From IMG/VR virus record IMGVR_UViG_3300031645_000017, positions 1 through 23,302 of that record: 23,302 bases of DNA; one strand, 5' to 3'. Below are positions 140 to 18,678 of the stretch, piece by piece. The stretch comes from a virus. Position 1 is the first letter of the stretch; the number at the start of each line of letters is the position of its first letter. A program made the translations under genes and the position numbers. The notes beneath the pieces were generated by a model. The model was not told where the DNA came from. It searched no databases and saw only the letters and a program-made list of their open reading frames with translations.

Positions 140-2824
140 TTACATCCAGGGACTTCCGAAACCAGCATAGGGTGAAGTACCACTACTATTTACCCCCCCC
201 CACCATCCCTGATTTTGTCCAAAGTCCCATACGTTTAGACCTGTTTGCAAAGCTCCAAGTCCTGATCCTGCTATATTTAACCAGTCACCTACCTGACCAG
301 ACACTGGTTGACCTGGAACCTGTACACTTGCATCTGTAGTCTGCGAAGGAACACCATAAGCCAACCTCTGCATATCCATTCCGGCCTTTGCAAGACTATC
401 TGCATAGCGCATAAAAGCCGTGTATGGGGTATTCTGTTGAGCGTAATCTTGCTGTGCCTGGGGAGCCAACATATTAGCGCTTAAGCGTTGCTGCTCAGCA
501 GCCATGCCGCCACCCATCATTACGTTGCCTACTGGCTTTCCACCAAAAGAAATATTAATCGGATTGGCTTTAGCTGCATCTATAGCTTGATTATATGGTT
601 GGACATTTTGTTGTATAGCATCTACATATTGCTGGTTTTGGGCATCACGGTATTGCTGTTCTCCGGCTAATGCCTGCGCTAAATAGGACGCTTGACCTGC
701 ACCCGGACTTCCAAAAACATTATCCAAATACATTTCCCAAACAGCCGCTCCGCCCGCCGGCAGAGGACCAGGCGCTTGTATTTGAGTTTGAGTTCCTTCG
801 GTATCGCCGCTCATATTATTACCTCCGATTGACCCTATTCCGGACAACGTGCCCAGAGACGAGGGTTGCTGTGTTCCTCCCAAAAAATCCGTTTGTGGTT
901 GTGCTCCGTCAGCTATTTCCGACAAGGAAAGCGCCGGAGGTTGTTGAGCGGTGGGTTGGTGGCCCAAAATATTCTGCGGTAGCAACATACTTGCATCCGT
1001 AGCCGCAGGCTGTTCCGTGGGTTGTTCGGCCTGCCCTGGCAATAATGTACCGGTATCGCTAGGGGGTTGCTGCTGTGGCGGGGCGAGGTCTCCGTTGGTA
1101 GCAGGCAAAGAGGGAATTGATGGTTCCCTTGGCAATAATGTACCGGCATCGCCGGGGGGCTGCTGTTGTATATTTCCCGCAAAGGGTGGTTGATCTGACA
1201 ATAAAGGAGCATAAGCCTCGTTTGGGACGACTTGGGAACTACCAAAATCAATAGTCAGGGAATCGCCTTCTTTATAGCTTAATGAGCCGACATCATCGTA
1301 AAAACCACCAACAGTTCCCAGATAGTTACCTTCCAAATCGTAAGTATGTCCTCTGCGGGTATCTACATAACCAATTAATTGATCGTTTGCATAAAGTTCT
1401 CCCTGGGGGTGTCCAGGAGTAAAAGAATTTGAGTAGGGCGCGCTCCCAGTTTGTTCCCGTTGCCATTGATGGAATTGCTTATATGCCCCATTTTGCACAA
1501 ACTGGCCGTAATATTTCCCGCTCTGGCCTTCATCAAACGTAATTCCATAATTATCTAACCACCATTTGTCCCAATCTTCTGGCGTTCCTCCGCGAGTATC
1601 TTCTTTAATGTTGCGGACACTGATATCATTCCTTGGCCTATTTAAGCTAATGCTGCCAGGCAAACCCAAAATAGAAGTCTCTTCACTGTCCATAAAAGCA
1701 GGTGCATGGATATCAGTTAATTCCCCCCCCTGCGGCTCCCTGTTCAACTTTCCAGTCAGAATAGGGTCAACAGTGCCATCATCGTTTATTGCAGATGTTT
1801 TTGAACTGCAAACGAAAGAGTTTACATTGTTACCGTCTTCACTAAGATTTCCTATAATTTGACCGCCCGAATTAAATACCATTCCAGATTCATCAGCCCA
1901 ATATCGTTTTCCGGCTAAAGTGACCGGCGTGAAATCCCCTTGTGACTGTGGTACTTGACCAGACGGAACGAGTACCTGGTTATAAATTTGAGCTTGCAAT
2001 GAAGGCACATTGTAATATACAAATGGTTTCCATTTGTATCTATTACTTCCAAATTTAGGAGGTTTCGGTTTATATATAAGTGGGTCGAATTCTTCCCATC
2101 CTATATTGTCAAGTGTGGCGATTGCTTCTTTTTCTTTCCCCTGGCGAAAAAGTTTACGAAATTCTGTTTCTGGTATATCTGCAGGCTGATCTCCATGCAG
2201 ACGTTCATTCGTGCATTGTTCTAATTTATTGGTTCCAGGGTTATACCTGAGGAGAACACGAGCTTGATTTTGTCCTGTGTCCTGTAAGTAATAATTTCCT
2301 TCATTGTCAATATGTATTGTTTCTAACTCAGGATTACGCCATGAAACGCGGGGCTTTAGATTTTTTGCCCACTTTTTCTGTGCGTGCTTCGACATGAAAT
2401 GACTAAAAATTCCCATTCCCACGCCAACAACAATAGCCGCAGGATTACCTGTTGCTGCCCATACTGCCATTCCTCCAAGATCGAACGCAGTTCGGCCAGA
2501 CGGGTCTTTTGCAAAGTTGTAAGCTGCAAGACCGGTGCCTACCCACGGAATCCATTCACCGACAGAACTTGCACCAGCCAATCCCGCCCCTTCGGCAGCC
2601 TGATTTGCATATTGAGTTGCGGCAGTTCCGGAAAGGCCCATTTCTGCTGCTTCTTGAAGTCCTTGCTGAAAGGCCCGTTGTATTAGTACGGTATTGGCAG
2701 TGTTATAAGCACCTAATCCTTGCTGTACTCCGGCAGCGACTTGACCCGGATCTCCTTCGTCAAAACCTTGATAGATATCCAACCCGCTCTGGGCACCGCC
2801 TAAACCAACGTTTGCTATACCCAT
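140..2824 (-). CDS. Large virion protein, probable internal/ejection protein (894 aa)
   Basis: I do not recognise a named family. The N-terminus (1-100) is Gly/Ala/Gln-rich. Residues about 88-143 contain a Gly/Ala-rich hydrophobic stretch (core AAIVVGVGMGIF at 129-140) long enough for a membrane segment, followed by a basic patch (146-160, KHAQKKWAKNLKPR). The middle (160-530) is beta-like with short tyrosine/glycine repeats. Residues 475-508 resemble the module found in the next two upstream genes. Residues 548-630 are a disordered Pro/Gln linker with the element QQPPxDxGTLLP repeated. The C-terminus is Gln/Ala-rich helix. ATG at 2824 follows an AGAGGA site. Late position, low complexity and a membrane-like segment suggest a protein injected with the DNA to form a channel, as known for podoviral ejection proteins. 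That role is inferred from architecture and position only. Confidence 0.65.
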   Translation of the reverse strand: MGIANVGLGGAQSGLDIYQGFDEGDPGQVAAGVQQGLGAYNTANTVLIQRAFQQGLQEAAEMGLSGTAATQYANQAAEGAGLAGASSVGEWIPWVGTGLAAYNFAKDPSGRTAFDLGGMAVWAATGNPAAIVVGVGMGIFSHFMSKHAQKKWAKNLKPRVSWRNPELETIHIDNEGNYYLQDTGQNQARVLLRYNPGTNKLEQCTNERLHGDQPADIPETEFRKLFRQGKEKEAIATLDNIGWEEFDPLIYKPKPPKFGSNRYKWKPFVYYNVPSLQAQIYNQVLVPSGQVPQSQGDFTPVTLAGKRYWADESGMVFNSGGQIIGNLSEDGNNVNSFVCSSKTSAINDDGTVDPILTGKLNREPQGGELTDIHAPAFMDSEETSILGLPGSISLNRPRNDISVRNIKEDTRGGTPEDWDKWWLDNYGITFDEGQSGKYYGQFVQNGAYKQFHQWQREQTGSAPYSNSFTPGHPQGELYANDQLIGYVDTRRGHTYDLEGNYLGTVGGFYDDVGSLSYKEGDSLTIDFGSSQVVPNEAYAPLLSDQPPFAGNIQQQPPGDAGTLLPREPSIPSLPATNGDLAPPQQQPPSDTGTLLPGQAEQPTEQPAATDASMLLPQNILGHQPTAQQPPALSLSEIADGAQPQTDFLGGTQQPSSLGTLSGIGSIGGNNMSGDTEGTQTQIQAPGPLPAGGAAVWEMYLDNVFGSPGAGQASYLAQALAGEQQYRDAQNQQYVDAIQQNVQPYNQAIDAAKANPINISFGGKPVGNVMMGGGMAAEQQRLSANMLAPQAQQDYAQQNTPYTAFMRYADSLAKAGMDMQRLAYGVPSQTTDASVQVPGQPVSGQVGDWLNIAGSGLGALQTGLNVWDFGQNQGWWGGVNSSGTSPYAGFGSPWM

Positions 2825-2859
2825 TTATCGAAGTCCTCTTTTTTGGTTAAGTACCATTT

Positions 2860-4515
2860 TTAGGCACCCGGATTTCCATATTGAGCCATGTAAGGCAAAG
2901 CATTATAAACCATTTGATAGGGAGCCAAAGGATTGCGGCTTTCTGACTGAGAACCACTTGTCTGCGTTGTGTAGCTGCCCAAATTGCTGGCAAGCCCACC
3001 AAGCGTTGCAGGATAAGAGGTTTGATATGCTGCTTGCTGGCTTGCAAGTTGTCCCAATGCTCCTGCCTGTTGCCCTGCAAGTGAAGCTTGTTGAGGCAAA
3101 ATGCTTCGATATGCCGTATTGGCTGCATTAGCCAAGACTCCCTGCCCAGTAGTTGAATTAATCATATTCTTGGATGCAAGCTGATTTAATCCCCCCTGCA
3201 ACGCTGGTTGTAATTGTTGTTGGTATATAGTGGGCAAATAGTTCTGGGCCTTCTCGTACCCCTGGTTGATTTGCTGTCCCGCCGTATCGTATGACCCAGA
3301 GATTAAAGACTGAAATGCTTCAGGCGTCATGCTCTCTTGTAACTGAGACATCCATCCGGCAATAGTAGGGGCATATTGTTGCCCCATTCCAGAATATGAT
3401 GATCCTTGCGAACCAGATGTAGACCAGGGGCCTTCAACACCAGATACATCAGGAAGATTAAAGGCTGATCCCTCCTGGGACGATGCTTGGCCTGACGGAC
3501 CAGAACCTGCTTCTACAGTTCCATCAAGGTGGGTAAACCCAAGCTGTCCATTTTGCCCAGCCGCTATGTCACCAATATGATCACCACCTAAACCATAACA
3601 TTGACCTGTCTTGAGGTTCACTCTACCTGATACTTGACCATTAAGAAGTATATTCCCGTCAACATCAATATCAAAAGAACTATTTTGGAAATCATAATGC
3701 CCAGGGTTAACTATAGGTTCTTGATTTGGCACCGGGTAGGCACCACCATGCATGGGGCCTTCACCAGATGGCCCACCTCTTGCTTGAAGGAGGGCGCGCC
3801 TTATGGCATTAGTGTGAGAATTATCAGATCTTATAGGTTCTTGATTTGGCACCGGATAGGGGCCACCAGAAAAGGGGCCTTCAAAGGGTGCGCGGCCACC
3901 GTCCCCACTGTAAGGGTTATAAGATACTACAGGTTCTTGGGGATAGAAGGGGCCACCACCGTCCCCACTGTAAGGGCTATGAGATAGTATAGGTTCTTGA
4001 TTTTGAACGGGATAGAGGGGGCCACCTTGCATGGGGCCTTCACCAGAGGGCCGACCTTTTGCTTGAGGGAGTGCGCGGCTCATGGCATTAATGGGAGAGC
4101 TATCAGATATTATAGGTTCTTGATCTGGCACCGGATAAGGGCCACCAGAAAAGGGGCCTTCAAAGGGTGCGCGGCCACCGTCCCCACTGTAAGGGTTATA
4201 AGATACTACAGGTTCTTGATTTTGAAGGGGGGGGTCACTATAAGTTTGTAACGGACCAGAACCTGCTTCTACAGTTCCATCAAGGTGGGTGAACCCAAGC
4301 TGTCCATAATGCCCAGCCGCTATGTCACCAATATGATCACCACCTAAACCATAACATTGACCTGTCTTGAGGTTCACTCTACCTGATACTTGACCATTAA
4401 GAAGTATATTCCCGTCAACATCAATATCAAAAGAACTATTTTGGAAATCATAATGCCCAGGGTTAATTATTCGATTTTGATTACTTTCATTTCTTCCAAT
4501 TCCTGTCCAGGCCAT
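2860..4515 (-). CDS. Repeat-built virion protein with duplicated 72-aa module (551 aa)
   Basis: The protein has three zones. Residues 17-88 and about 269-340 are two almost identical copies of a beta-type module with the core CYGLGGDHIG. Between them lies a disordered Pro/Gly-rich zone made of repeats such as NQEPVVSYNPYSGDGG and APFEGPFSGGPYPVP. Residues about 360-551 form a Gln/Ala/Gly-rich helical tail (for example NQLASKNMINSTTGQG) of a type common in phage proteins located beside ejection genes. The start ATG follows a strong AAGGAG site. The upstream neighbour, the deacetylase, has a diverged copy of the same module inserted between its catalytic motifs. I infer a virion or tail-associated protein in which the module serves binding or docking. 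No enzyme motif is visible, and the function is unknown. Confidence 0.65.
   Translation of the reverse strand: MAWTGIGRNESNQNRIINPGHYDFQNSSFDIDVDGNILLNGQVSGRVNLKTGQCYGLGGDHIGDIAAGHYGQLGFTHLDGTVEAGSGPLQTYSDPPLQNQEPVVSYNPYSGDGGRAPFEGPFSGGPYPVPDQEPIISDSSPINAMSRALPQAKGRPSGEGPMQGGPLYPVQNQEPILSHSPYSGDGGGPFYPQEPVVSYNPYSGDGGRAPFEGPFSGGPYPVPNQEPIRSDNSHTNAIRRALLQARGGPSGEGPMHGGAYPVPNQEPIVNPGHYDFQNSSFDIDVDGNILLNGQVSGRVNLKTGQCYGLGGDHIGDIAAGQNGQLGFTHLDGTVEAGSGPSGQASSQEGSAFNLPDVSGVEGPWSTSGSQGSSYSGMGQQYAPTIAGWMSQLQESMTPEAFQSLISGSYDTAGQQINQGYEKAQNYLPTIYQQQLQPALQGGLNQLASKNMINSTTGQGVLANAANTAYRSILPQQASLAGQQAGALGQLASQQAAYQTSYPATLGGLASNLGSYTTQTSGSQSESRNPLAPYQMVYNALPYMAQYGNPGA
3495..3710 (-). repeat. 216-bp direct repeat, copy B (module B of the 551-aa protein)
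   Basis: This segment matches 4251-4466 with only a few substitutions (for example ggtaaaccc against ggtgaaccc, ccattttgc against ccataatgc) and no length change. It encodes one complete 72-aa module in frame. Near-identity at DNA level indicates recent duplication or gene conversion. Confidence 0.95.
3832..3939 (-). repeat. 108-bp direct repeat, inner copy 1
   Basis: It matches 4111-4218 with two visible differences and encodes 36 residues of the Pro/Gly-rich linker, including GRAPFEGPFSGGPYPVP. The flanking GEGPM-type segments are also partly repeated, so the linker grew by duplication of a larger cassette. Confidence 0.9.
4111..4218 (-). repeat. 108-bp direct repeat, inner copy 2
   Basis: This is the partner of 3832-3939, in the same reading frame of the 551-aa gene. 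Both copies lie inside the pair of 216-bp repeats, which gives a nested duplication. Confidence 0.9.
4251..4466 (-). repeat. 216-bp direct repeat, copy A (module A of the 551-aa protein)
   Basis: This is the partner of 3495-3710, offset by exactly 756 bp, which is a whole number of codons. It encodes residues 17-88 of the protein. Confidence 0.95.
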
Positions 4516-4546
4516 GATTATTTACTCCTTTTATGTTCTATTTCTT

Positions 4547-5581
4547 TTAAATAACAGGAACACTTTTTATTAATTCCTGAATCACTAAGTTATCCAAGGT
4601 ATAGTCAACCCCACCAGAAACAGCCAAAACATACTGCTGATTTCCTTGAGGACGATCATTTGCATCTCCCCAAGTCCAAAAACCAATAGAATAATCAGGA
4701 TACCAGGGCAATGTCCTTGCTCTCTCAGTTTCTTCTAAAAAGACATTCCTGAGTTGTTTATAGAGAGAACTTTGATAATATCCCCATTTATCAGCCATAC
4801 CAGAAAGATCGGCACCTGTATAGGTCAAATATCCACCTGCATCTCGAACCACAACAATATTAGGTATCCAAACATCTTTTCCGTATCGTGTCGCAAGTTG
4901 TCTGACTACATTGCTGACCATTCGGTGATGTTCATGCCCATACTCTCCCCAGGGATTATGAGTATAGATTGTGTCAACTTCGGGATCGGCGATTATGTCC
5001 CTCAAGAGCTTTTTTAAGATTATTTCATTTGTTCGCTCTTTATGAAACCTTCCTGTTTCAACTGGACCGCCACCAGGGATATGTGTAAACTGAATCTCTC
5101 CTGATGGGTTTCCCGACATCGTGCCGATAAAATCTCCGCCCAGGCCATAGCATTTGCCTGTGCTGAGTTCTACTGTTGCGGCTTTTTCTCCATCGACATA
5201 AATAAAGCCATTACTTGCAAGAACGTACGTCCCTGATTCAAAGATGTAATCACCAGGAACAAGCTCTCCTGATTCAGCACAAGGGCCGATTTCTCTATTA
5301 AGGAAGTTATCACAATATGGCCCGACCTCCATTATCCCTCTGGTAGGACACCACGTACCAGAGAAGTGCTTAGAGAGTTCGGTTGCTATATTACAGTGTC
5401 CATAAGTCATAGGTACTGCTGCAACATAAACTTTGTCGAATTGCTCAAGAAACGGTAGCATCCAGATGACCTCATCGTCGAGATGAGCAATAATCACAAT
5501 AGATTGAGCTTGCGCTTGTATTGAAGAACTCATAAGTAAAACCACCAAACTTACAAAAAGTATTTTAATCTTTTTTTTCAT
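4547..5581 (-). CDS. Secreted PIG-L/LmbE-family deacetylase with inserted module
   Basis: The N-terminus is a clear Sec signal peptide: a KKKIK start, a hydrophobic core to about residue 20, and a likely cut after IQAQA (25). Residues 32-37 read AHLDDE, the zinc and acid motif of the GlcNAc-PI/LmbE de-N-acetylase family (usually AHPDDE). Residues 207-219 (THNPWGEYGHEHH) hold the second histidine motif, so H33, D36 and H219 are the expected metal ligands. By family knowledge it should remove N-acetyl groups from an amino sugar, outside the cytoplasm. Residues about 108-178 are an insertion between the two motifs with the core CYGLGGDFIG, shared with the adjacent 551-aa protein. The ATG overlaps the end of a broken upstream frame by four bases (ATGA). 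The real substrate (capsule, LPS or peptidoglycan) is unknown. Confidence 0.85.
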   Translation of the reverse strand: MKKKIKILFVSLVVLLMSSSIQAQAQSIVIIAHLDDEVIWMLPFLEQFDKVYVAAVPMTYGHCNIATELSKHFSGTWCPTRGIMEVGPYCDNFLNREIGPCAESGELVPGDYIFESGTYVLASNGFIYVDGEKAATVELSTGKCYGLGGDFIGTMSGNPSGEIQFTHIPGGGPVETGRFHKERTNEIILKKLLRDIIADPEVDTIYTHNPWGEYGHEHHRMVSNVVRQLATRYGKDVWIPNIVVVRDAGGYLTYTGADLSGMADKWGYYQSSLYKQLRNVFLEETERARTLPWYPDYSIGFWTWGDANDRPQGNQQYVLAVSGGVDYTLDNLVIQELIKSVPVI

Positions 5582-5718
5582 TCTTTAATTCCTGAATCAT
5601 TTCTTCGACAAATTCCATGATCAAGATTTTCCAAGAATCCACCAAATCCAGCAATGATTTCTTTACTTAGGCGATTGCCTCGGTTTTCAGCCCAGTAGAC
5701 ATATTTGCTCTTGCATTG
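5578..5718 (-). pseudogene. Broken paralogue of the 75-aa protein encoded at 8265-8492
   Basis: A frame without a start codon opens after a TAA at 5719-5721 and runs 46 codons to a TGA at 5578-5580. Its middle (AENRGNRLSKEIIAGFGGF, then LENL) is identical to part of the 75-aa protein. After LENL this copy loses the similarity in frame, while the neighbouring frame continues with IMEFVEEMIQELKNEKKD, which resembles the other protein's VMEILEEELSKKK. The copy therefore carries at least one frameshift in addition to a lost 5' end. A second joint lies upstream, where the small frame at 5667-5762 runs into it out of frame. A sequencing error could explain the frameshift but not the missing start. 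Confidence 0.7.
5633..5691 (-). repeat. 59-bp perfect direct repeat, copy 1
   Basis: These 59 bases are identical to 8359-8417. Weaker similarity extends about 20 bases leftwards, into the frameshift point. This is the DNA basis for the broken paralogue. Confidence 0.95.
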
Positions 5719-5762
5719 TTATCAAAGTTATAAGTACCAGCTGGGAGGGGTAAATTGCCCAT
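5667..5762 (-). CDS. 31-codon frame fused to the broken paralogue; likely truncated gene
   Basis: An ATG at 5762-5760 follows a strong TAAGGAG site by seven bases. The frame encodes MGNLPLPAGTYNFDNNARAN, then MSTGLKTEAIA and TAA. The last ten or so codons are the duplicated 59-bp segment read in a different frame from the intact paralogue, so this protein's natural C-terminus is probably lost. The N-terminus looks like the beginning of a small beta-rich phage structural protein similar in size to its upstream neighbours. It is probably translated, given its ribosome site, but a function in this state is doubtful. Confidence 0.45.
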   Translation of the reverse strand: MGNLPLPAGTYNFDNNARANMSTGLKTEAIA

Positions 5763-6557: not shown

Positions 6558-8261
6558 TTAAATCCTTGGTGTAAATGTTATCCCCGGCTTCCTTGGTGTA
6601 AATGTTATCCCCGGCTTCCTTGGTGTAAATGTTATCTTCATTCTGCCAATGGGTAATCCACTCCGAGTAAATGTTATGTCAGTCCCAGTTAGTATAAATT
6701 CTCCTGAGTCCATTGATAAAAGACGGTTGAAAAATAAGCCGATATCAGCACCGGTGAGTGTGAATGATCCTGAATCCATTGCAAGGAAGCGGTTTCGCAA
6801 CAGGTTAATATTTGCACCGGTGAAGGTGAATGATCCCGCATTCATTGATAAATATCTGTCCACAAGCAAATCAATATCTGCACCGGTGAAGGTGAATGAT
6901 CCCGCATTCATTGATAAATATCTGTCCACAAGCAAATCAATATCTGCACCGGTTAAGGTGAATGATCCGGAATCCATCGCAAGTAAATACGTTATTAAAT
7001 AGATGAGGTTAATATTTGCACCGGTGAGAACAAAAGATCCGGAATCCATCGCAAGTAAACGACCTCGCAACAAATCAATATCTGCACCGGTGAAGGTGAA
7101 TGATCCCGCATTCATATTAAGTGAGCGCCCCAACAATAAATCGACATCTGCGCCTGTAAGTGCAAAAGAACCTGCACCCATTGCAAGAGCAGGTATTTCC
7201 GGTGTTCCCTCTATAACAAAAGTTCCGGGATCACTTTGGTTTTTGTATTCTGCTCCCATCCATTCAACAGATCTAGCTATATTTGAAACACGAACCTCAT
7301 CTATCCAACCGTCCGAAGAAGTTCCGAAAGTTGATCTTTCTAATATACCAATATGACAGGTATTCAATATTGACATATCACCTAGTAAATCTGTGTTCGT
7401 CCCCTCCACAGCCCCACCATCCACATAAACCGATCTGGAACTTTTGCTCGCTTGTGTGCCAACAATATAGTGAATTGCGTCATCATTTATAGCAGTTGTT
7501 CCTTTTGCTTCGCATTTCCAAGTAGCATTTTCTTTGAATATTATTCGTGCTGAATACGGGGAGTTTGGATCTATCTGGAGCAAGAGTGCCCATGAAGTAT
7601 TTCCATTGTATCCTTCTCCAAATATTGTCCCAATTCCAGATGATCTAATCCAAGCACTTATAGACCAAGAGGTATTATTAACTACAAGCATATTAGCTGG
7701 TGTTATATAATCATCGCCAGAAGCACTACCATCAAAATCCTGCCCTTTACCTATTTTCCCAGTAGCCTCTATTGGTTCATTCGCAGCTTTTTTCGTCCCA
7801 TCATTACTATTACTTGTAGAATCAGTAATGGTAGAAGTGGTCGCATCATTCATATGCTGAACCATAATAAAATTACTGTCCCACACATTCTCAGCACCAT
7901 AAGCATTGTCTATTGCAGGCTGGCTTTCTCCAGACTTATGATACCAAACGTAAATGGTTGTGTTAGATGAAGAGCTTATTGAAGGAACTTTTACCCAAAT
8001 CTCGGCAACTCCATTGGCTGGGTCATTATCAATCGTGGAGGTAACAACTTCACAGGCAAGTTGGGTGTCCCCAGCGCTATCAGACGAAAAACGGATATCA
8101 CCACCACCACTGAGCGCAGGGTAGCTTCCATCTGCATCAAACATCTCAGATGGCAAAGTATCCTTTGTCAGCAAAACAGGAAAGTTTACCTGATTGGCAT
8201 CAACCTTGCTTGATTGTATTACTAGGGCACATTTGCGGCCCCAACCAGTTGGGAAACTCAT
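6558..8261 (-). CDS. Tail adhesin: DUF2341, LamG-like domain and 22-aa repeats (567 aa)
   Basis: Residues about 10-112 match the DUF2341 pattern (VNFPVLLTKDTLP, then DIRFSSDSAG, then TTIYVWYHKSG). Residues about 130-352 are a concanavalin/LamG-like sugar-binding domain (DGWIDEVRVSNIARS, then WMGAEYKNQSDPGTF). Residues 360-537 are eight repeats of about 22 aa with the consensus MDSGSFTLTGADIDLL. The C-terminus is three tandem copies of ITFTPRKPG, the last one partial. DUF2341 plus LamG is known from surface-binding proteins, and this repeat type occurs in phage fibres. I infer a receptor-binding or decorating fibre in which the repeats form a beta-rich stalk. The start ATG is three bases after the upstream TAA. 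No catalytic residues or chaperone domain are visible. Confidence 0.85.
   Translation of the reverse strand: MSFPTGWGRKCALVIQSSKVDANQVNFPVLLTKDTLPSEMFDADGSYPALSGGGDIRFSSDSAGDTQLACEVVTSTIDNDPANGVAEIWVKVPSISSSSNTTIYVWYHKSGESQPAIDNAYGAENVWDSNFIMVQHMNDATTSTITDSTSNSNDGTKKAANEPIEATGKIGKGQDFDGSASGDDYITPANMLVVNNTSWSISAWIRSSGIGTIFGEGYNGNTSWALLLQIDPNSPYSARIIFKENATWKCEAKGTTAINDDAIHYIVGTQASKSSRSVYVDGGAVEGTNTDLLGDMSILNTCHIGILERSTFGTSSDGWIDEVRVSNIARSVEWMGAEYKNQSDPGTFVIEGTPEIPALAMGAGSFALTGADVDLLLGRSLNMNAGSFTFTGADIDLLRGRLLAMDSGSFVLTGANINLIYLITYLLAMDSGSFTLTGADIDLLVDRYLSMNAGSFTFTGADIDLLVDRYLSMNAGSFTFTGANINLLRNRFLAMDSGSFTLTGADIGLFFNRLLSMDSGEFILTGTDITFTRSGLPIGRMKITFTPRKPGITFTPRKPGITFTPRI
6564..6637 (-). repeat. 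27-bp tandem repeat, about 2.7 copies
   Basis: Units begin at 6564, 6591 and 6618, the third incomplete. They encode the ITFTPRKPG steps at the extreme C-terminus of the 567-aa adhesin. The first two units are identical, which points to recent slippage. Confidence 0.95.
6651..7184 (-). repeat. Eight 66-bp repeats encoding 22-aa units
   Basis: The array encodes residues 360-537 of the adhesin. Seven units are 22 codons and one is 24. Neighbouring units around 6825-6960 are nearly identical over more than one unit length, while the outer units are diverged. This pattern is expected if the array grows from the middle by unequal recombination. Confidence 0.93.
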
Positions 8262-8264
8262 TGA

Positions 8265-8492
8265 TTATATCTCATCAGTCTTTGTATCCAATATAGAATC
8301 TGACTGCCCTTTTTTCTTGCTCAGTTCTTCTTCAAGTATTTCCATAACAAGATTTTCTAAGAATCCACCAAATCCAGCAATGATTTCTTTACTTAGGCGA
8401 TTGCCTCGGTTTTCAGCATCGAAATTTCTCATAAAAGGAACAAATTTATCTTGTACCCTAACAAGTAATTCTTGATTCTGTTTTTGCTCCAT
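8265..8492 (-). CDS. Small helical protein, unknown function (75 aa)
   Basis: The protein is charged and helical (MEQKQNQELLVRVQDKFVPF at the start), with the core GFGGFLENLVMEILEEELSKKK. There is no signal peptide, membrane helix or recognised motif. The ATG overlaps the upstream stop by one base (TAATG), which suggests coupled translation with the 113-aa gene. The next gene, the adhesin, starts three bases after its stop. Such small helical proteins beside fibre genes are sometimes fibre chaperones or assembly factors, but nothing in the sequence proves this. A broken copy of its 3' half lies at 5578-5718, close to another set of structural genes. Confidence 0.7.
   Translation of the reverse strand: MEQKQNQELLVRVQDKFVPFMRNFDAENRGNRLSKEIIAGFGGFLENLVMEILEEELSKKKGQSDSILDTKTDEI
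8359..8417 (-). repeat. 59-bp perfect direct repeat, copy 2
   Basis: Identical to 5633-5691. Here it lies inside the intact 75-aa gene and encodes AENRGNRLSKEIIAGFGGF in frame. Confidence 0.95.
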
Positions 8493-8855: not shown

Positions 8856-9962
8856 TTATGTTGTAAATTCAAACTCATACTGACTCAAGAAAGAATGGTC
8901 TACAATGCTATAAAGTTTAAGTCTTCCAGCAGCCTTATAAGCTCTCACTATATCTACGCAAGCTACTTGTCCACTTGTATTGACATGACGTACATATAAA
9001 TCCCTGAATCTATAACTAAGTGATCCCAAATCTGTAGATAAATTAGTATAAGGAACCATGGCTGGGGAAAAAATCTGCACTTCATATGAACATTTCAATT
9101 TCAAGGCATAACCACTTTCAGCAGTCATGTAAATTCCACGATTACAGTGCACATATAAATAATTATTATCTGCAAATATAGCCGCATAAAACACATCTCC
9201 TGAATTACGGAAATCTATAGCTTGCCCAGCGTGCATTCTAAATTCGCCATACATATCAAAGCCATAGGCTGCTTGGGTGGTAGAACCATTTACATAAACC
9301 GTGTTATCGGCCGTATGACTGGCTGTATAATCACCAGGATTGAGACAATTATGCTGTGATGTATAATCACCAGGATTGAGACAATTATGCTGTGATGTAT
9401 AATCACCAGGATTGAGACAATTATTAGCACTAGTTACATCAGCGCCATCGTCAGGTTTATGGGTATCATCATCTGCTATCTGACTCCAATTAGCGGTGTT
9501 GGCCGCTGTTGCTATTGTGCCGTCTCTTATTGAAGACCAGTTGGTTCCATCATATCTATAGGGTTCATTGTCATTATCCGTATCAAACCAGAGGTCATTT
9601 TCCCGCATACCTATAGTGGGCATAGATGTTTGAGCAAATACATTTCGATAATTTCTGTATCCTTCCGTATCCTGAAGAATCTGTAAAGATGGAAGTCTTA
9701 CTTCGTTTTCAGTGTTGCAGCGAGCATCGGGTTGACATACTATGTCAAATAGCTGCCCACTAGAATAATCATCGGGATCAATATAAAAATCAGCGAATCC
9801 TGCTGAATCGGTATAGATTTGAGGCGCTGTGTCATGAAGGCTATCGTTGGCATCAAAAACACGGGCAGGTGTAGACGTACCGGCAAGATAAATCGAAACA
9901 CCGGCATTCTTTAGAAGAACCCCGTTTTGCTTAAATGTTTGCCGCCAAAGAGTTTTAGCCAT
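8856..9962 (-). CDS. Tail fibre-like protein with 12-aa tandem repeats (368 aa)
   Basis: The start MAKTLWRQTFKQNG lies one base after the stop of the tail hub gene. Residues 1-100 form a beta-rich head (GVSIYLAGTSTPARVFDAND, then a GQLFDI segment) like the virion-attachment part of short-tail fibres. Residues about 115-150 (ENDLWFDTDNDNEPYRYDGT) match a small beta element common in phage fibres. The element NCLNPGDYTSQH is then repeated nearly three times. The C-terminal half includes GSLSYRFRDLYVR, a signature often seen just before a fibre's end. No peptidase-chaperone domain is visible. It should bind host surface or connect the adhesin to the hub. The assignment as fibre is good, its receptor unknown. 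Confidence 0.8.
   Translation of the reverse strand: MAKTLWRQTFKQNGVLLKNAGVSIYLAGTSTPARVFDANDSLHDTAPQIYTDSAGFADFYIDPDDYSSGQLFDIVCQPDARCNTENEVRLPSLQILQDTEGYRNYRNVFAQTSMPTIGMRENDLWFDTDNDNEPYRYDGTNWSSIRDGTIATAANTANWSQIADDDTHKPDDGADVTSANNCLNPGDYTSQHNCLNPGDYTSQHNCLNPGDYTASHTADNTVYVNGSTTQAAYGFDMYGEFRMHAGQAIDFRNSGDVFYAAIFADNNYLYVHCNRGIYMTAESGYALKLKCSYEVQIFSPAMVPYTNLSTDLGSLSYRFRDLYVRHVNTSGQVACVDIVRAYKAAGRLKLYSIVDHSFLSQYEFEFTT
9324..9423 (-). repeat. 36-bp tandem repeat, about 2.8 copies
   Basis: Units start at 9324, 9360 and 9396, the third losing identity after about 28 bases. The full units appear identical. The array is in frame and encodes repeated NCLNPGDYTSQH in the fibre, so copy-number change alters length by 12 aa without a frameshift. 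Confidence 0.95.
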
Positions 9963-9963: not shown

Positions 9964-11943
9964 TCAGTGTCCTCTACTTCTCATGGATGCAATCAATAAT
10001 CCCAATCCCTGGATATTTACAGGACTTGTAAAAGTTAATGTATCCAGTTTTACCTGAATTGAATCACAGGAAAAATTTAAGCGGGATTGAACTGGACCGG
10101 CAGAGGTTGAAAGATTTTTGCTCAGAAATGCCGAATCGCTCCCATTTCGATAAAATGCCATTGTCCAGCTTGCATTTGCCGCGCTTGCTAATTCAATAAA
10201 CATATCTCGTACAAGGATGGAAGCCCCCGGCATTCCCAGGATTGCTGATTTTATTTCGTAGTCAGGAGTTGCCCCATCATCTTGAACCAAAGTATCATCT
10301 AGTCTATAAAGATAATAATTTGAACATCCTACATAGAATTTATTATTGAAAGACGCAAAAGCAGTCGGAGTAAGATTCTTGAATTTGTATTCTGACCAGG
10401 GATATCTGGTCGGACCCTCTTCTGAATTTATGGGGTATGCTACATGACAAACAAGCACATTGTCATACCCATTAAGTTTGATTAAATATTGTCCATCTGC
10501 CGGATTATACTCAGCAAAGGCATTATCATCAAAATAGGTAGCTATTTTATTCTTTACGGGATCGCCAGGAGAATAAGTCCTGATATCCCCGTATTCTTGT
10601 ACGCCTGCTATGTTATGAACAGATTCTCCACTTGCCAGCCAAACATCGTTTCTCAAACTTTTCACAGTTTTGTGATTTGTAAATATCTGTTGAAACAATG
10701 GCGGGAGAGTAAAATCGTTAGGAGTTGCTCCTGTCAAACGAGAGATATATGGCTGTTGCTCTTTTCCGAAAACAAAGAGATCGCCGTAATGAGCGACAAT
10801 CCCCCCCACAGGATACGAATTTGCGTTATCGTCAACCGCAGAAACATACCCCCCACCGTCCGTATCATAACCAGTGTTTGTAGACAAAAGGGAAGTAGCG
10901 GTAGACCAGTCGAAAACAGTATTGACATTTGAATACCAAATATACCCGGGATGGTCCGGGTCGCCGGCTACAAAAAGCCTATTATCTTTTACGTCTCCAA
11001 ACTTGGCTTTAGGTGGCAATCCAGGCTTTACGCCTAAGTTTGTATTTGCGGTAGACACATTGTGCCAAGTGCCATCATAGTAATATTGATCTCCACCGGA
11101 TGCTACCGTGGAGCCATGGACTTTGAGATAATTGGCAGCACCCCCGCCAGAATATTCTAAGCAGATAATAAACTCAGTGGCCGAGGCCATAAAATAGCTG
11201 CCATCAAATACAAAGCTTTTTTGTATGGCGTTTGTGGTTAGTGTAGCAATGTTGATTGCTGCAGATGTTGCAAGCAATGTGTCCCCTGAAGCATTGAACA
11301 ATTTAGCCGTAATGTTGCCCGTCGGAGAACCTGCCTTATTGATCCAAATATCCAAGGTAGTTAAAGGAATCGTATAACCCGTAAAGACGCCTGTAGTGAA
11401 CTTAGTCCCACAACGGATTTTTGATCCAGAATAGAGACTTTGAGTATTATCATCATTTGCACATAAATTGCTATGTTGATAGGCCGCGTGGCCCACTCCA
11501 TCATCATAGGCAAGACTAACTGTTGTCCCCTGCGTCACTTTGATATAATCTCCATCAAGAATGACACAATAGCCGTTAAATGGCACCAAGGTTGCCTCAC
11601 CGCTCAGGGTCGCAAGCGCGTTACCCGGATCGATAGTGGGTTCTACTCCTGTGCATTTGTAAATTTTGTGATCAGCATCAACTAAAAAAATATAGGTATT
11701 TGCTCCTATAGGAATATAGGCAATATGCTTTATTGCGGCGCCAGTTGCGACACTACTTACTTTTTTGAGACCGTCTCTTGTTACCCATTTTCCGAAATCG
11801 TTGAGCTTGAAATTTTGGCAAGAAGCAAACTCATCTGGGAGCAATTGCTTTTCATTGACAACCGAATTAAGGCCCAGAGGTTTAGTCCAGAGCATTAAAG
11901 GCTGTGATTGCCGTGGTTGAGTATTTGAAGTAGGCCACGGCAT
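9964..11943 (-). CDS. P22 gp10-like tail hub / DNA stabilisation protein with inserted domain (659 aa)
   Basis: The N-terminus (LGLNSVVNEKQLLPDEFASC, then GKWVTRDGLKKV) and the segment GLPPKAKFGDVKDNRLFVAG near residue 308-328 match the pattern of podoviral tail proteins related to P22 gp10, a beta-propeller-like hub that plugs the portal after packaging and holds fibres. Residues about 155-303 do not fit that fold. They read as an added beta-sandwich (TTLDIWINKAGSPTGNITAK, then TEFIICLEYSGG) of the kind seen in sugar-binding or choice-of-anchor domains. The gene lies between the adaptor (two-base gap) and the fibre (one-base gap), the order seen in related phages. Assignment is by pattern memory and is likely but not proven. 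Confidence 0.8.
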   Translation of the reverse strand: MPWPTSNTQPRQSQPLMLWTKPLGLNSVVNEKQLLPDEFASCQNFKLNDFGKWVTRDGLKKVSSVATGAAIKHIAYIPIGANTYIFLVDADHKIYKCTGVEPTIDPGNALATLSGEATLVPFNGYCVILDGDYIKVTQGTTVSLAYDDGVGHAAYQHSNLCANDDNTQSLYSGSKIRCGTKFTTGVFTGYTIPLTTLDIWINKAGSPTGNITAKLFNASGDTLLATSAAINIATLTTNAIQKSFVFDGSYFMASATEFIICLEYSGGGAANYLKVHGSTVASGGDQYYYDGTWHNVSTANTNLGVKPGLPPKAKFGDVKDNRLFVAGDPDHPGYIWYSNVNTVFDWSTATSLLSTNTGYDTDGGGYVSAVDDNANSYPVGGIVAHYGDLFVFGKEQQPYISRLTGATPNDFTLPPLFQQIFTNHKTVKSLRNDVWLASGESVHNIAGVQEYGDIRTYSPGDPVKNKIATYFDDNAFAEYNPADGQYLIKLNGYDNVLVCHVAYPINSEEGPTRYPWSEYKFKNLTPTAFASFNNKFYVGCSNYYLYRLDDTLVQDDGATPDYEIKSAILGMPGASILVRDMFIELASAANASWTMAFYRNGSDSAFLSKNLSTSAGPVQSRLNFSCDSIQVKLDTLTFTSPVNIQGLGLLIASMRSRGH

Positions 11944-11945
11944 TT

Positions 11946-12572
11946 TCAGAAATCCAATTTTCTTCTGGCAGGCATTTGTGGTGCATACCGTCTCATAATA
12001 TTTTTTGACATTACCGCTTGACTGAAAAATTTCATTAAAGCTCCATCCATCCCAGCATCAAATTCGTTGCGATTTTTGGCCTGAACAACCACTGCTTGTC
12101 TTAAGGTATCATTAAATTGATCTGCATAAGGCAGGGTTCCATCAATAAGCAGAGTTCCGGTTGCTTTGTCCAAATATAAAGTCAGCGAATAATCAGCATC
12201 AGCAGTCTCTTCAAATTCAATATTTTGCCCTATCACACACCAATAGTCAGGCTGTCCAGTAGAGGATATCCATTTTCTTTCATAATAAAGTCTTGCAGGC
12301 GGTGTCATCGGACTAAGTTGAGTAGTATCAATCCACACATCGGTAATAATTATGGTATTTGTCGGCACAGCGACCGAATTGTCGCCGCTCACAAGAGTTT
12401 TGCTCGTATCCTCAGCCATTACAAGATCGCTCCCGATTCCGGATAACGTATAGTCAAGCTGGAATATGGCCCTGTTGAGATACTCTAAAAGCTCGGCAAC
12501 AGTATACTCAGCTACATCAATATCCCGAAGATCATATCTTGCTACGGTTATTAGGGTATCTGGAGTGGTCAT
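11946..12572 (-). CDS. Head-tail adaptor protein (208 aa)
   Basis: The early segment LRDIDVAEYTVAELLEYLNR, a beta-rich middle (TIIITDVWIDTTQ, then PARLYYERKW) and a helical end (DTLRQAVVVQAKNRNEF, then FFSQAVMSKNIMRRYAPQ) fit the adaptor family that docks under the portal ring in podoviruses (P22 gp4 or T7 gp11 role). Length of about 200 aa and position directly before the gp10-like hub agree. The ATG at 12572 has only a weak purine-rich site (AAGAAAAG). It is separated from the preceding structural gene by a 153-bp stretch with an unusual open frame. Function by family and position. Confidence 0.75.
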   Translation of the reverse strand: MTTPDTLITVARYDLRDIDVAEYTVAELLEYLNRAIFQLDYTLSGIGSDLVMAEDTSKTLVSGDNSVAVPTNTIIITDVWIDTTQLSPMTPPARLYYERKWISSTGQPDYWCVIGQNIEFEETADADYSLTLYLDKATGTLLIDGTLPYADQFNDTLRQAVVVQAKNRNEFDAGMDGALMKFFSQAVMSKNIMRRYAPQMPARRKLDF

Positions 12573-12608
12573 CTTTTCTTATTACCGATCCATAATTCTT
12601 ACCAGTTG

Positions 12609-12725
12609 TTACCAACTGAGGTTATCTCCTGCTTCATAGACAATAGTTTCACCACCATAACAACTGATAGCCAGAGCTGCCGTCTCTACAGGCTTAAATT
12701 CCGCCAGAACTTGGCGTATTCCCTT
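12609..12725 (-). other. Open 38-codon in-frame extension after a TAA stop
   Basis: Directly after the TAA (12726-12728) of the 239-aa gene the same frame stays open for 38 codons, giving KGIRQVLAEFKPVETAA, then ISCYGGETIVYEAGDNLSW and TAA. The composition looks protein-like. No ATG, GTG or TTG lies in this frame, so it cannot begin on its own in the usual way. It is either reached by stop-codon readthrough, or is the remnant of a gene or of a longer C-terminus cut by a nonsense change. Confidence 0.4.
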
Positions 12726-13445
12726 TTAGTCAGTTCTGAAACAAAGTGCGCTTACCTCAACTATGAGCCCATCACAATCGACCGTTCCGGCACCGGAAAA
12801 ATCAATAGTGTCGGCAGTAGAGAAGTAGACCGGGACTTGCCTTAGTGGAGCTTTATTTACCATCACAGTCAAAGTAGCCGTGCCAAGATCAAGTGTACCG
12901 CCTGTGTTATTCAGCAATAACGCGGTGACTGTATCGGCTGCCGTAACAGAGGCAGTTAACGCCACGTCAGCTAGGTCAATGCTGTAATAAGCAACGCACA
13001 TATCACCCAACTGTGCCCCGTTCACCGTAACTTCTTTGGCTTCTTCATCGCCATCGGGAAGAGAAGCGGCATCCCAGGTATCCGAAGCGGTGTAAATGGT
13101 AGGGACTACCCCTGTGACATCCATGGCGAGTTCCTGACCCCACTTGTCTACATCACCGCCATAGCCAAGGTTGAGGATTGCTCCAGTACCTTCAGCCGTG
13201 ACGATCCGAGCCCAAACATCTAAAACTGTGGTTTCGGCAATCACATTCAGAACCTGGGCAACATCTGTATCGCCCGTATCCAAAGTTTGCTTTGTGAAAT
13301 CAACATAATTTCGTAAAACGAAAAGATGCTGATCTATTGGTGATAAAGGCCGCACAGCAGCCTTCTTGGATTTTATCTTAGAATGGCTACTCGGGATCAT
13401 CTGACCCCCAATAGTGCCATCCGTAAAGTTATATGTAGCAGCCAT
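12726..13445 (-). CDS. Capsid-surface or decoration-type structural protein, long paralogue (239 aa)
   Basis: Residues 1-112 (start MAATYNFTDGTIGGQ) and 201-236 (VPVYFSTADTIDF) align with the whole 149-aa protein upstream, including shared NLGYGGD/DLGYGGD and DGL-VEV signatures. Residues about 113-200 are an extra domain (KEVTVNGAQLGDMC, then DTVTALLLNNTGGTLDLGTA) of a beta type found in many phage surface proteins. The pair follows the coat gene, so a head-decoration or minor head role is likely. Start and ribosome site (GAGGTAATAAAATGGCTGC) closely copy those of the coat gene, which suggests equally strong translation. No signal peptide. Its stop is followed by an open in-frame extension. 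Confidence 0.75.
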   Translation of the reverse strand: MAATYNFTDGTIGGQMIPSSHSKIKSKKAAVRPLSPIDQHLFVLRNYVDFTKQTLDTGDTDVAQVLNVIAETTVLDVWARIVTAEGTGAILNLGYGGDVDKWGQELAMDVTGVVPTIYTASDTWDAASLPDGDEEAKEVTVNGAQLGDMCVAYYSIDLADVALTASVTAADTVTALLLNNTGGTLDLGTATLTVMVNKAPLRQVPVYFSTADTIDFSGAGTVDCDGLIVEVSALCFRTD

Positions 13446-13460
13446 TTTATTACCTCACAT

Positions 13461-13495
13461 AAGGAAGGGCGAACCTTGGAAAATCACCCTTCCTT
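13461..13495 (-). other. RNA hairpin between the two head paralogues
   Basis: A perfect 9-bp inverted repeat (AAGGAAGGG / CCCTTCCTT) surrounds a 17-base loop, just upstream of the ribosome site of the 239-aa gene. No T-run follows on the minus strand, so it is not a classical terminator. It may be a processing or stability element that lowers expression of genes downstream. Confidence 0.55.
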
Positions 13496-13521
13496 GTATT
13501 ATTTGTATTTACCCCTACAAG

Positions 13522-13971
13522 CTAAAATGCCGAAAGGTTTTTCACGCACATCGCCACGACTTCAACCTTTAAACCGTCAATATCAACAGCGCCGGTATCT
13601 GTAGTAGCCAGGATGTCAATGGTATCAGTAGCGGAGAAATATAAAGGAACCCGAAGATATCCAAGCAGGCTTCCCGCAGCACCATCAACCGCAAGAGCAA
13701 CACCCCAGACGTCAGGATCACCCCCATAACCAAGATCTACTGTTCCATTTGCTGTCTCGGCAGTAATTACCCTAAGCCAGGCAGTGAGAACGGTGGTTCC
13801 CGCCGGAATATTGATAACCTGGGCTGTATCAGTCGCAGTGGCCTCTATTGTCTGCAATGAAAAATCAACAATGTTGCGAAGAAAAAATACCTCATTCTCT
13901 TCGGCAGTCTTAACCCTGGGGGTTATTGCCCCAGCGATTGACCCGTCTGTAAAATTATACGTAGTAGCCAT
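13522..13971 (-). CDS. Capsid-surface or decoration-type structural protein, short paralogue (149 aa)
   Basis: Begins MATTYNFTDGSIAGAI after a GAGGTAAACAATT ribosome region. The body is beta-rich with VDLGYGGDPDVWG and a closing VDIDGLKVEVVAM. It aligns end to end with the larger next gene except for that gene's inserted domain, so the two arose by duplication. Location directly after the major capsid protein, small size and lack of any catalytic motif suggest a head decoration or accessory head protein. I do not know a named family for it. Confidence 0.75.
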   Translation of the reverse strand: MATTYNFTDGSIAGAITPRVKTAEENEVFFLRNIVDFSLQTIEATATDTAQVINIPAGTTVLTAWLRVITAETANGTVDLGYGGDPDVWGVALAVDGAAGSLLGYLRVPLYFSATDTIDILATTDTGAVDIDGLKVEVVAMCVKNLSAF

Positions 13972-13995
13972 AATTGTTTACCTCTTAGAAATTAT

Positions 13996-14013
13996 GGGAG
14001 AGGATCCTCCCCC
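13996..14013 (-). other. G/C-rich hairpin after the capsid gene
   Basis: Around the palindrome GAGGATCCTC a stem of seven pairs (one G-U on the minus-strand RNA) can form about 22 bases after the coat stop. No T-run follows. It could protect the 3' end of the capsid message or slow transcription, but it is short and may be chance. Confidence 0.35.
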
Positions 14014-14034
14014 CCTCCCTTTAATTAATTAATG

Positions 14035-15144
14035 TCAGTGAGCAGCAGCATAAGAAGTGATGGCTAATGTGCCAAAGTCCTTAGAATTAAAGGTATTCTT
14101 TTTAATTCCACACACCATTCCACCGCAAATGCCTTTCTGATTACCGTAATCGTCCGCATCCTCCGCCCAACTCATGTAATTCTTTTTCCCGTATCTTGAC
14201 TGATCCATCTTGTCATACGGATTGGCGAGAGCAAAAGAACCGGCCTGAGCACCAAGCAACATTCCCCTGCGTACATTAGAAACCGGGGAATGTATATGGT
14301 GAGTCTCAAAAATTATCATGCCGTGGTAAACGCCAAGTGCCCCTGTAAATACAGGGTTCTTGAGGCCACGAACATTTGCATATTGCTGAATTGTAGTCCA
14401 GTCAATATTAGTGCCAGGCCCAATGCCTAAGCGTATATCTGTTGCTTGATATGGATGAAGAACGACTATAAAGTACTCGCCGCCCTCAATCTTAACCGGA
14501 CGAATCGGAGGGATGCCCGTCGTCGGCACAGTTGCCTTTTCCTTGGCATAGTCAAGATCCTCAAGTGAAAGCTGATCATTAGCCCCAAGGCTGCCTTCAT
14601 CTGTGGCAATAGTCCCTGTATGAGAAACATCACCGCATACATAGTAGTGTGCGCTATCAGGAGCCGTACCCGACTGACCAAAGCTTATGGTCGTATCGCC
14701 ACACAAAAATCGCCACATATAACTCTCAAGAGTATCACCACATTTATCGCTGATATTTTCTTGAGCATCGCTTCTTAGATCATGTAGCGTTCTTTGCTGA
14801 GACATCCGCTTGAATTCGTGCGGAAACCTCATCTGGTCGATAACAAGCGAATCTTGGTAATAAACCAGGGCTTCGCCCATTCCTTTGGCTCGGTTATCTC
14901 CAGTGATAGGATCTTTTGTCATCTGCATTAACAGATCGTATTTGACAGTATCTCCCTCACCTTTGTCCATTTCGTCAAAAAATTCAATTACAGCGCGTTT
15001 CTTTGTAGGCATACCATTGACTTTTTTCCCGAGTCCTACAAACTTCTGAAAAAGATGTGTGCTTTTTAGAGACTCGCGGAAAGCCTTGGTAGACCAATTA
15101 AGAACATTTTGCGCTGAACCTGTTGCAAATTCAGTAGCAGCCAT
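14035..15144 (-). CDS. Major capsid protein, N4-gp56/DUF4043 type (369 aa)
   Basis: The characteristic order of this HK97-fold coat family is visible: GEGDTVKYDLLMQMTKDPIT near residues 63-82, then MGEALVYYQDSLVIDQMRF, then RMSQQRTLHDLRSDAQENIS (about 113-132), and later the FIVVLHPYQATDIR and NPVFTGALGVYHGMIIFE segments. Length of about 370 aa is normal. It forms the icosahedral shell. The gene follows the scaffold by 19 bases and has an excellent ribosome region (GAGGTAATAAAATGGCTGC). No cleaved N-terminal domain or protease gene is seen, in keeping with scaffold-driven assembly. High confidence from family pattern and context. Confidence 0.92.
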   Translation of the reverse strand: MAATEFATGSAQNVLNWSTKAFRESLKSTHLFQKFVGLGKKVNGMPTKKRAVIEFFDEMDKGEGDTVKYDLLMQMTKDPITGDNRAKGMGEALVYYQDSLVIDQMRFPHEFKRMSQQRTLHDLRSDAQENISDKCGDTLESYMWRFLCGDTTISFGQSGTAPDSAHYYVCGDVSHTGTIATDEGSLGANDQLSLEDLDYAKEKATVPTTGIPPIRPVKIEGGEYFIVVLHPYQATDIRLGIGPGTNIDWTTIQQYANVRGLKNPVFTGALGVYHGMIIFETHHIHSPVSNVRRGMLLGAQAGSFALANPYDKMDQSRYGKKNYMSWAEDADDYGNQKGICGGMVCGIKKNTFNSKDFGTLAITSYAAAH

Positions 15145-15163
15145 TTTATTACCTCATTTTTTG

Positions 15164-16198
15164 TTACTCCTCCTCCATCAGGTCATATAATTTTTCTGCC
15201 TGGGTCTCGGTTAAAGATAAGAGAGACTCAAGCGGTAAATCAGCAATACTTTCAAGTTTCATGCCCGGCTTTTTACTATTAGGCACACTAGCAAAGGACG
15301 TCTTTCTACCAAGAAGTTTGGCTTGATCAAGAGATTTTCCAGGCGTACCTTTAGCCGCTGACGCCATTCCCAACGCCTTGCGTAACTTCCTGGTAATAGT
15401 CGAGCCGGTAGCCATAAATGCCTCAACAACTGTTTCAAAATCAGAAGCAGGATATCGTTTTGCAAATTCTGCTTCTATACCAGACGAATAAAGCATTTCT
15501 TCAGCCTCTCGCTGTGACCTTGGACCCCGACCAGTCGAGTTAACAAGATTGTCAAAGTTCTGGCTAATCCAAGCCCATTCACCGCTTAATTTTTGCATAC
15601 CACCTCGATAGGCAGCATTTTCTGAAACAATGCTGTTTTGTATCTTCTGTAGCCCATCAAACTGCGTCTGCTGTACTTGCTGATTTCTGGTACTCATTAA
15701 GTCCTGTTGGAGTGGAGTAAGTTCTTTTCGGATTATTTCTCTAATTGCAGAAGCTTTGATTATAGGAGTTTCGGTTTCACCGTCTCCGTCTTGCCTGAAC
15801 TCAACCATAAGATCTTCAGGGACAGTCGGTTGCGCCGCTGCCTGTTGCTGTGCGGTCTCTTGCTGACGCTGTTGCTGTGCGGTGACAAGAAATTCATTAA
15901 CCTGGCTAAAACGGCCTTCAAGATTCTGTCTCTTATTCCTTTCTTTTTTGAGTTCTTCGAGTAATCCATTGTTGGCTGTTTCGAGCTCACCAAACCGCTT
16001 ATCTATAGGATTTTTTGGCGCGATTACCGGCTCCCCCCCTGCATCAACTTCGAGTGCAGGACTTCCAACAGCCTCTTTTCCGCCTGGCGAGGGCGTAATT
16101 TCTTCGCCGGAGAACGCTGGAGTTTCTACTTCTTCGATTTCAGGGAGAATGTCCTTTGCTTCCATAATCTCTTCTATTGTTGTTTTTTCTTCTGCCAT
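15164..16198 (-). CDS. Scaffold protein (344 aa)
   Basis: An acidic, disordered N-terminus (MAEEKTTIEEIMEAKDILPE) is followed by a coiled coil at about 67-105 (ELETANNGLLEELKKERNKR), a Gln-rich stretch (QQQRQQETAQQQAAAQ), further helices and a basic C-terminal region (KLRKALGMASAAKGTPGKS) before an acidic tail. High charge, helix content, length and position directly before the coat gene are typical of podoviral scaffolds, which guide coat assembly and then leave the shell. The ribosome site AAAGGAAAG lies just after a triple-hairpin leader. Sequence identity to a known scaffold is not claimed. Confidence 0.82.
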   Translation of the reverse strand: MAEEKTTIEEIMEAKDILPEIEEVETPAFSGEEITPSPGGKEAVGSPALEVDAGGEPVIAPKNPIDKRFGELETANNGLLEELKKERNKRQNLEGRFSQVNEFLVTAQQQRQQETAQQQAAAQPTVPEDLMVEFRQDGDGETETPIIKASAIREIIRKELTPLQQDLMSTRNQQVQQTQFDGLQKIQNSIVSENAAYRGGMQKLSGEWAWISQNFDNLVNSTGRGPRSQREAEEMLYSSGIEAEFAKRYPASDFETVVEAFMATGSTITRKLRKALGMASAAKGTPGKSLDQAKLLGRKTSFASVPNSKKPGMKLESIADLPLESLLSLTETQAEKLYDLMEEE

Positions 16199-16211
16199 TG
16201 TTCTTTCCTTT

Positions 16212-16284
16212 CACTCTTCGGGAGTGAGCCGATGCACCGTTTAACAGTGGTGAACCGAAAACATCTTTTAGCGGGGATGAGCCG
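16212..16284 (-). ncRNA. Three tandem hairpins in the leader of the scaffold-capsid genes
   Basis: Read on the minus strand, three units begin with CGG(C/T)T and then fold: CATC...GATG (16262-16279), CACC...GGTG (16235-16252, with further G-U pairs) and CACTC...GAGTG (16212-16226). Unit spacing is 26-27 bases. The stem bases differ between units but pairing is kept, which is compensating change. The last hairpin ends about eight bases before the scaffold ribosome site. Likely a cis-acting RNA for stability, protein binding or translation control. No known class is recognised. Confidence 0.6.
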
Positions 16285-16371
16285 ATCATAAGAATTGCTA
16301 ACCGGGCCTATATGGTCCTCGTGTTAGTTATTAGTTATTTGATTTTAAATGTAATTTTAAACTCTATGTTT

Positions 16372-16395
16372 TTAAGGCATGGCTTGTTCTCCTTT
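16372..16395 (-). other. Two-codon minigene (ATG CCT TAA) with strong ribosome site
   Basis: In the 281-bp gap between portal and scaffold a strong AAAGGAG site (16389-16395) stands eight bases from an ATG (16378-16380), followed at once by CCT and TAA. It would encode Met-Pro only. Apart from this and the hairpins the gap is AT-rich and holds no gene. A weak TTGATA/ATAAGT pair near the portal stop could be a promoter. Confidence 0.45.
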
Positions 16396-16479
16396 GTTAT
16401 TTTGTACCATAAACTTTCACGCTTGACAGATACTTATTAATTTGTTTAATACTTTATCAATATTGGACATCGTGAATTG

Positions 16480-18663
<2,184 letters not shown>

Positions 18664-18678
18664 TTTATGCCAAGCCCG

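Follow-up and report, generated by a model that had tools for sequence, protein, structure and literature searches.

How does a phage enzyme that is predicted to act on sugars come to carry, between its metal ligands, a segment that is found twice over in the protein encoded next to it, and what might the sharing be for? The question is raised by a 23.3-kb viral contig, IMG/VR record IMGVR_UViG_3300031645_000017, whose whole analysed stretch (positions 1 to 23,302) is referred to below as the window. Its minus-strand late block closes with genes for proteins of 344, 551 and 894 residues, in reading order, the first of them a PIG-L/LmbE-type enzyme, a predicted N-deacetylase in which the residues of the active site are intact. 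A first-pass annotation had described the three genes as adjoining one another, which they do, and as carriers of a single beta-type module. We find that the module is common to the deacetylase and the 551-residue protein, while for the 894-residue protein the case is suggestive only.

The module in the deacetylase and its neighbours

A segment of ~72 residues in the deacetylase aligns with each of two segments of the 551-residue protein at 38-40% identity, with BLASTP expectation values (E) of 4e-13 and 7e-13, and the corresponding Smith-Waterman scores are 145-149 as compared to a maximum of 58-62 in 5000 shuffles. Chance similarity, the outcome that would have undone the idea of a shared module, is thereby ruled out for this pair of proteins. 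The core CYGLGGDxIG is almost invariant across the copy in the enzyme and the two in its neighbour, and both this core and the coordinates given in the first-pass annotation, together with the count of one copy in the enzyme and two in the 551-residue protein, hold up. The two copies in the 551-residue protein (a and b in Table 1) correspond to a 232-bp direct repeat with about 97% DNA identity and are therefore the product of a recent internal duplication; the DNA identity between the enzyme's module and that of the 551-residue protein is ~56%.

The beta-type character that had been read from the letters is matched by structure prediction. When the module was modelled alone with AlphaFold2 from four alignment rows, the five models had mean predicted local distance difference test (pLDDT) scores of 61 to 87, and the best of these (pLDDT 87, predicted template modelling score 0.73) has eight short beta strands arranged as four hairpins. 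Six of the eight strands recur in register in a model of the whole enzyme, an agreement that is partly circular, as rows from the 551-residue protein are in the alignment. Searches of the Protein Data Bank (PDB) and of viral structures with the module gave no match with E below 0.001, and its PDB neighbours in structure comparison are middling ones (best Z score 7.2), small barrels of eight strands that include U-Omp19, lipocalin-like proteins and avidins. The beta-flower domain (PF21784, PMC10584680), a shallow barrel, is also small and all-beta, its four hairpins being built from eight short strands, and its profile resembles the two central hairpins of the module at an hhalign probability of 21%, with none of 100 shuffles scoring as well. 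The Pfam model of PF21784 does not match the whole proteins or the module segments at E up to 10; the [DNEQ]xxG motif is present at one hairpin tip of the module (DVDG in the 551-residue protein, DSSG in that of a sister phage introduced below) and absent at the others; and a profile built from 29 Chloroflexota loci gave no significant hmmsearch hit to proteins of the window. Identity with the beta-flower was thus rejected, and a resemblance is all that we retain.

A possible divergent third copy in the 894-residue protein has BLASTP E values of 0.02 against the 551-residue protein and 0.49 against the deacetylase, with shuffle p values of 0.000-0.011, which leaves chance similarity a borderline matter here. 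Scored with a module profile of four rows, the segment comes out above all 500 shuffled proteins, and in hhalign it reaches a probability of 15-22% (E about 0.001), with 0 of 100 column-shuffled profiles as good and with the other proteins of the window, as well as the sister phage's 776-residue homologue, scoring below it. The part of the 894-residue protein that holds this segment is absent from that homologue. The claim that three genes carry the module therefore stands for two of them, and the third copy is suggestive and not established.

Table 1. Coordinates of the deacetylase, its two late-gene neighbours and the module copies in the window
Feature	Position	Strand	Basis
PIG-L/LmbE-type deacetylase, 344 residues, module inserted	4547..5581	-	Pfam PIG-L and fold Z score
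Signal-peptide-like N-terminus, MKKKIKILFVSLVVLLMSSSIQAQA/QS, residues 1-26	5504..5581	-	Sequence reading; helix 2-17 in model
Metal motif 1, AHLDDE: H33, general base D35, ligand D36	5471..5488	-	HXDD as in PMC4101496
Module in deacetylase, residues 104-177	5051..5272	-	BLASTP E 4e-13 to 551-residue protein; absent in L004, L005, L008, L009
Metal motif 2, GEYGHEHH: H216, ligand H219	4925..4948	-	Nearly invariant in 35 sequences
551-residue late-gene protein	2860..4515	-	Homologue of sister 420-residue protein, 63% identity over 274 residues
Module copy a, 551-residue protein, residues 17-88	4252..4467	-	BLASTP
Pro/Gly-rich, internally repeated linker, residues 89-268	3712..4251	-	Direct repeats D2-D4
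Module copy b, 551-residue protein, residues 269-340	3496..3711	-	Aligns with the sister phage's single module
894-residue late-gene protein	140..2824	-	Homologue of sister 776-residue protein, 55% identity over 334 C-terminal residues
Possible divergent third module, 894-residue protein, residues 459-529	1238..1450	-	E 0.02; shuffles; hhalign

An enzyme interrupted between its metal motifs

The 344-residue protein matches the Pfam PIG-L family at 34.2 bits (cut-off 28.2). A phmmer search of PDB sequences with the whole deacetylase returned nothing useful, but structure comparison succeeded: the AlphaFold2 model (pLDDT 71.5) matches 3dfi at Z 13.4, the A40926 deacetylase, the teicoplanin deacetylase and MshB match it at Z 12-13, and the top 18 PDB entries are all of LmbE type (Z 10.6-13.4), which places the protein in the Rossmann-like LmbE fold. 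An alignment with 35 relatives shows H33, D35, D36, H216 and H219 to be conserved, with AHLDDE nearly invariant. The enzyme shares its fold (Z 11-13) and its HXDD and H motifs with the PIG-L/LmbE-like N-deacetylases MshB, BshB, Orf2 (teicoplanin deacetylase), Dbv21 and diacetylchitobiose deacetylase, and differs from the characterised members in two respects: a foreign beta module of ~74 residues separates ligand 2 from ligand 3, and the start is signal-peptide-like. The first-pass annotation had called the enzyme secreted, and the N-terminus, which looks like a Sec-type signal peptide, suggests that it is apparently exported; the N-termini of its nearest bacterial relatives, read by eye, support this in that one is likely a lipoprotein and the other membrane-anchored.

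That the module splits the enzyme between its two metal motifs, and that this is unusual for the family, is borne out by the spacing. The distance from H.DDE to GEYGH is 180 residues, as compared to 84-141 in about 95 bacterial and viral relatives, and the spacer between ligands 2 and 3 is 182 residues as it stands and 108 once the 74-residue module is removed, the range among characterised PIG-L/LmbE members being 97-148 (PMC4101496). The closest comparison is with four enzymes that group with that of the window in a single clade (support 99/99). Two are the nearest cellular relatives, from metagenome-assembled genomes of Bdellovibrio (L009) and Thiohalocapsa (L008), with best local segments of 44% and 34% identity, respectively; they are apparently exported, lack the module and have spacings of 99 and 102. 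The other two belong to Thiohalocapsa phage LS06-2018-MD04 (L004) and IMGVR_UViG_3300040794_000008 (L005), where their genes lie among those for head and tail proteins; they have a ~90-residue N-terminal domain but neither the module nor a signal-peptide-like start. Across the four, two phage and two exported bacterial, the motif spacing is 99-102, and their alignment with the window enzyme, which alone has the module, bounds the insertion at residues ~98 and ~180. Among the loci scanned, the N-terminal domain of the two phage enzymes, with its SNINPxxPAAGAASTxNVR stretch, is found only in these two (L004, 7485-8549; L005, 7737-8807).

This PIG-L clade thus recurs in podovirus-like phages (L004 and L005) amid their head and tail genes, and the literature that we searched, coverage being partial, held no description of it, nor any account of a PIG-L enzyme of a phage into which a module of a structural protein has been inserted. 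Phage PIG-L genes have been noted beside sugar-metabolism genes, e.g., in DLP3 (PMC7326821). Phage tail spikes that deacetylate a surface glycan are known, for example gp55 of Pectobacterium phage PP99, a trimer that takes an acetyl group off a talose residue of the O-polysaccharide (PMC6989608), whereas the enzyme of the window is of LmbE type and apparently exported. Many viral contigs (L089-L117) encode large proteins with PIG-L domains, of up to 2696 residues, and glycosyltransferase domains were present in two of the three that were scanned with Pfam.

The major capsid protein, used as a query, led to two sister phages, IMGVR_UViG_3300027979_000003 (45 kb) and IMGVR_UViG_3300009078_000007 (30 kb), and scans of viral contigs with proteins of the 551- and 894-residue types returned only these two records. 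The sister's 420-residue homologue of the 551-residue protein has one divergent module at the same place (E 1e-5 over the whole record), and neither sister record, over its 45 or 30 kb, has a PIG-L gene. Since the module is present in the sister protein where there is no enzyme, and absent from the nearest enzymes, the simplest history would make it native to the late-gene protein and have it enter an acquired enzyme on this lineage. The insertion was not recent, given the low DNA identity between the copies of enzyme and neighbour. Base composition was considered as a proof of the direction of transfer and dropped: the guanine-plus-cytosine content is 0.473 in the module, as compared to 0.40 elsewhere in the gene, but at third positions there is no difference.

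Beyond these phages, relatives of the module were looked for with pattern scans, which reach close relatives only. None was found in viral contigs by two approaches, none was confirmed in genome contigs, none occurred in the 291 genomes searched from the phylum to which the Bdellovibrio relative belongs, and none in phages or plasmids was convincing. A single marginal match among 398 genomes (L155, E 2e-4 per genome) looks like chance, and a short open reading frame (ORF) at ~5670-5762 on the minus strand, whose start is like the module's first hairpin, fell to chance level when searched against the whole protein.

What the module may do

The first-pass annotation had offered docking or a common ligand as the role of the module, and we favour, at a probability of roughly 0.45, the latter, with both the exported enzyme and the late-gene protein targeted to that ligand. 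The module would be a small, independent beta domain whose original place is in a late-gene protein of this podovirus lineage, and an apparently exported PIG-L-type enzyme acquired by this phage would have taken up a copy of it in frame between metal ligands 2 and 3. There it would act as a targeting domain, in the way that other envelope enzymes use modules which bind carbohydrate or the cell wall, and would bring enzyme and phage protein to one and the same component of the envelope. This would most likely be a glycan (such as peptidoglycan or a surface polysaccharide), and deacetylation would thereby occur where the phage apparatus acts. The change in copy number, from one in the sister protein to two in the 551-residue protein, and the long linkers would fit a binding module. 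It seems that a domain of a phage structural-type protein has moved into a loop of an accessory enzyme and, if targeting is true, this would be a route by which phages can make an envelope-acting tool of a metabolic-type deacetylase. A broader version, which we regard as doubtful, would have the module, as a small phage beta module of a kind not described before, serve as a transferable address tag: late proteins (probably ejected ones) and an exported N-deacetylase would both be directed by it to a single envelope glycan, and deacetylation of the envelope would belong to the machinery of infection or maturation.

The same sharing could instead reflect docking, in which the module would be a protein-protein device: through it the exported deacetylase would bind virion proteins, or a shared partner, and travel on the particle. 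The adjoining structural-type protein is the donor of the module, and the PIG-L homologues of the related phages L004 and L005 are encoded between head and tail genes, which shows that members of this clade can be found amid structural genes; a signal-peptide-like start is, however, needless in a protein that assembles into the particle, and a shared module docks only if it associates with itself or with a common partner, and we consider docking unlikely. Targeting is preferred on two grounds: the enzyme seems to have its own means of export, and a binding module accounts for the paired copies on a long linker as well as for the position of a module beside an active site. That last position is also where a substrate cap would be expected, i.e., an enlarged lid that acts locally on access to the active site or on specificity, with its origin in a neighbouring gene incidental. 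Active-site loops set the specificity of LmbE enzymes, an insertion in the teicoplanin deacetylase forms a capping loop (PMC4101496), and the space between the metal ligands is a site where such loops can occur. An identity of 40% and a near-invariant core held in common with a protein that shows no sign of being an enzyme nevertheless suggest that a common surface or ligand has been kept, and a purely local cap is, in our estimation, improbable to about the same degree as docking.

The least likely of the explanations considered is a neutral accident, in which recombination in a repeat-rich late region placed the module in a tolerant loop and no role is shared. Repeats and rearrangements are frequent here, among them 70-bp direct repeats 2.7 kb apart and the internal duplication in the 551-residue gene. 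Although ~60% of the residues differ between the copies, however, the core, the glycine pattern and the predicted strands have been kept, with reading frame and active site intact, and the insertion is therefore not recent and has been retained. Several points weigh against targeting itself. Where the 551-residue protein is located, in the virion or at the envelope, is something that we only infer, and a protein that acts inside the virion and not at the envelope might never share a ligand with the enzyme. No ligand-binding Pfam family matches the module, its best PDB match is only middling, and a deacetylase that carries it is known from one assembly only. Another contig, IMGVR_UViG_3300031601_000055, is 99.98% identical to the window over 15.7 kb and stops before the deacetylase.

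The late-gene block and other features of the window

The phage is known only from metagenomes. The head genes of the window are similar to those of podoviruses, e.g., Burkholderia phages DC1 and BcepIL02, and from their position in the late gene block the 551- and 894-residue products are likely virion proteins, or perhaps proteins that are ejected. A comparison with ejection and minor head proteins gave a weak match of the two to the minor head protein family phrog_581 (E 0.03-0.12), and homology between the C-terminus of the 551-residue protein and an ejection-protein-like ORF of L005 was not seen. The sister-phage homologues of the two proteins lie upstream of genes for 369- and 2761-residue products; in the sister record L153, the 2761-residue gene (11750-20032) is downstream of the 776- and 369-residue genes, and part of it matches phrog_21 (2e-48).

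The near-perfect 70-bp repeats, at 5622-5691 and 8348-8417, flank genes for products of 567, 136 and 122 residues, a cassette that the sister phage lacks and in place of which it has a 168-residue gene. The repeat copy at 5622 resembles a duplicated piece of a 75-residue gene and is directly upstream of the deacetylase start. The 567-residue protein (6558-8261) combines a DUF2341 domain with a run of ~22-residue repeats (66-bp units), and a DUF2341-like ORF is also close to the PIG-L gene of another locus, L006. Three NCLNPGDYTSQH-type tandem repeats are present in a 368-residue protein (8856-9962), whose gene also has short DNA repeats, and the portal protein has a very long polyglutamine tract at its C-terminus (16480-16651). 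The large terminase subunit (773 residues, 19575-21896) has an intein-like insertion at residues ~227-557, which matches regions of phage ribonucleotide reductase and DNA polymerase families and is seemingly missing from the 451-residue terminase of the sister phage. On the opposite strand, a 111-residue ORF (22895-23230, plus strand) resembles, on a reading of its sequence only, the start of an ERCC4-type nuclease.

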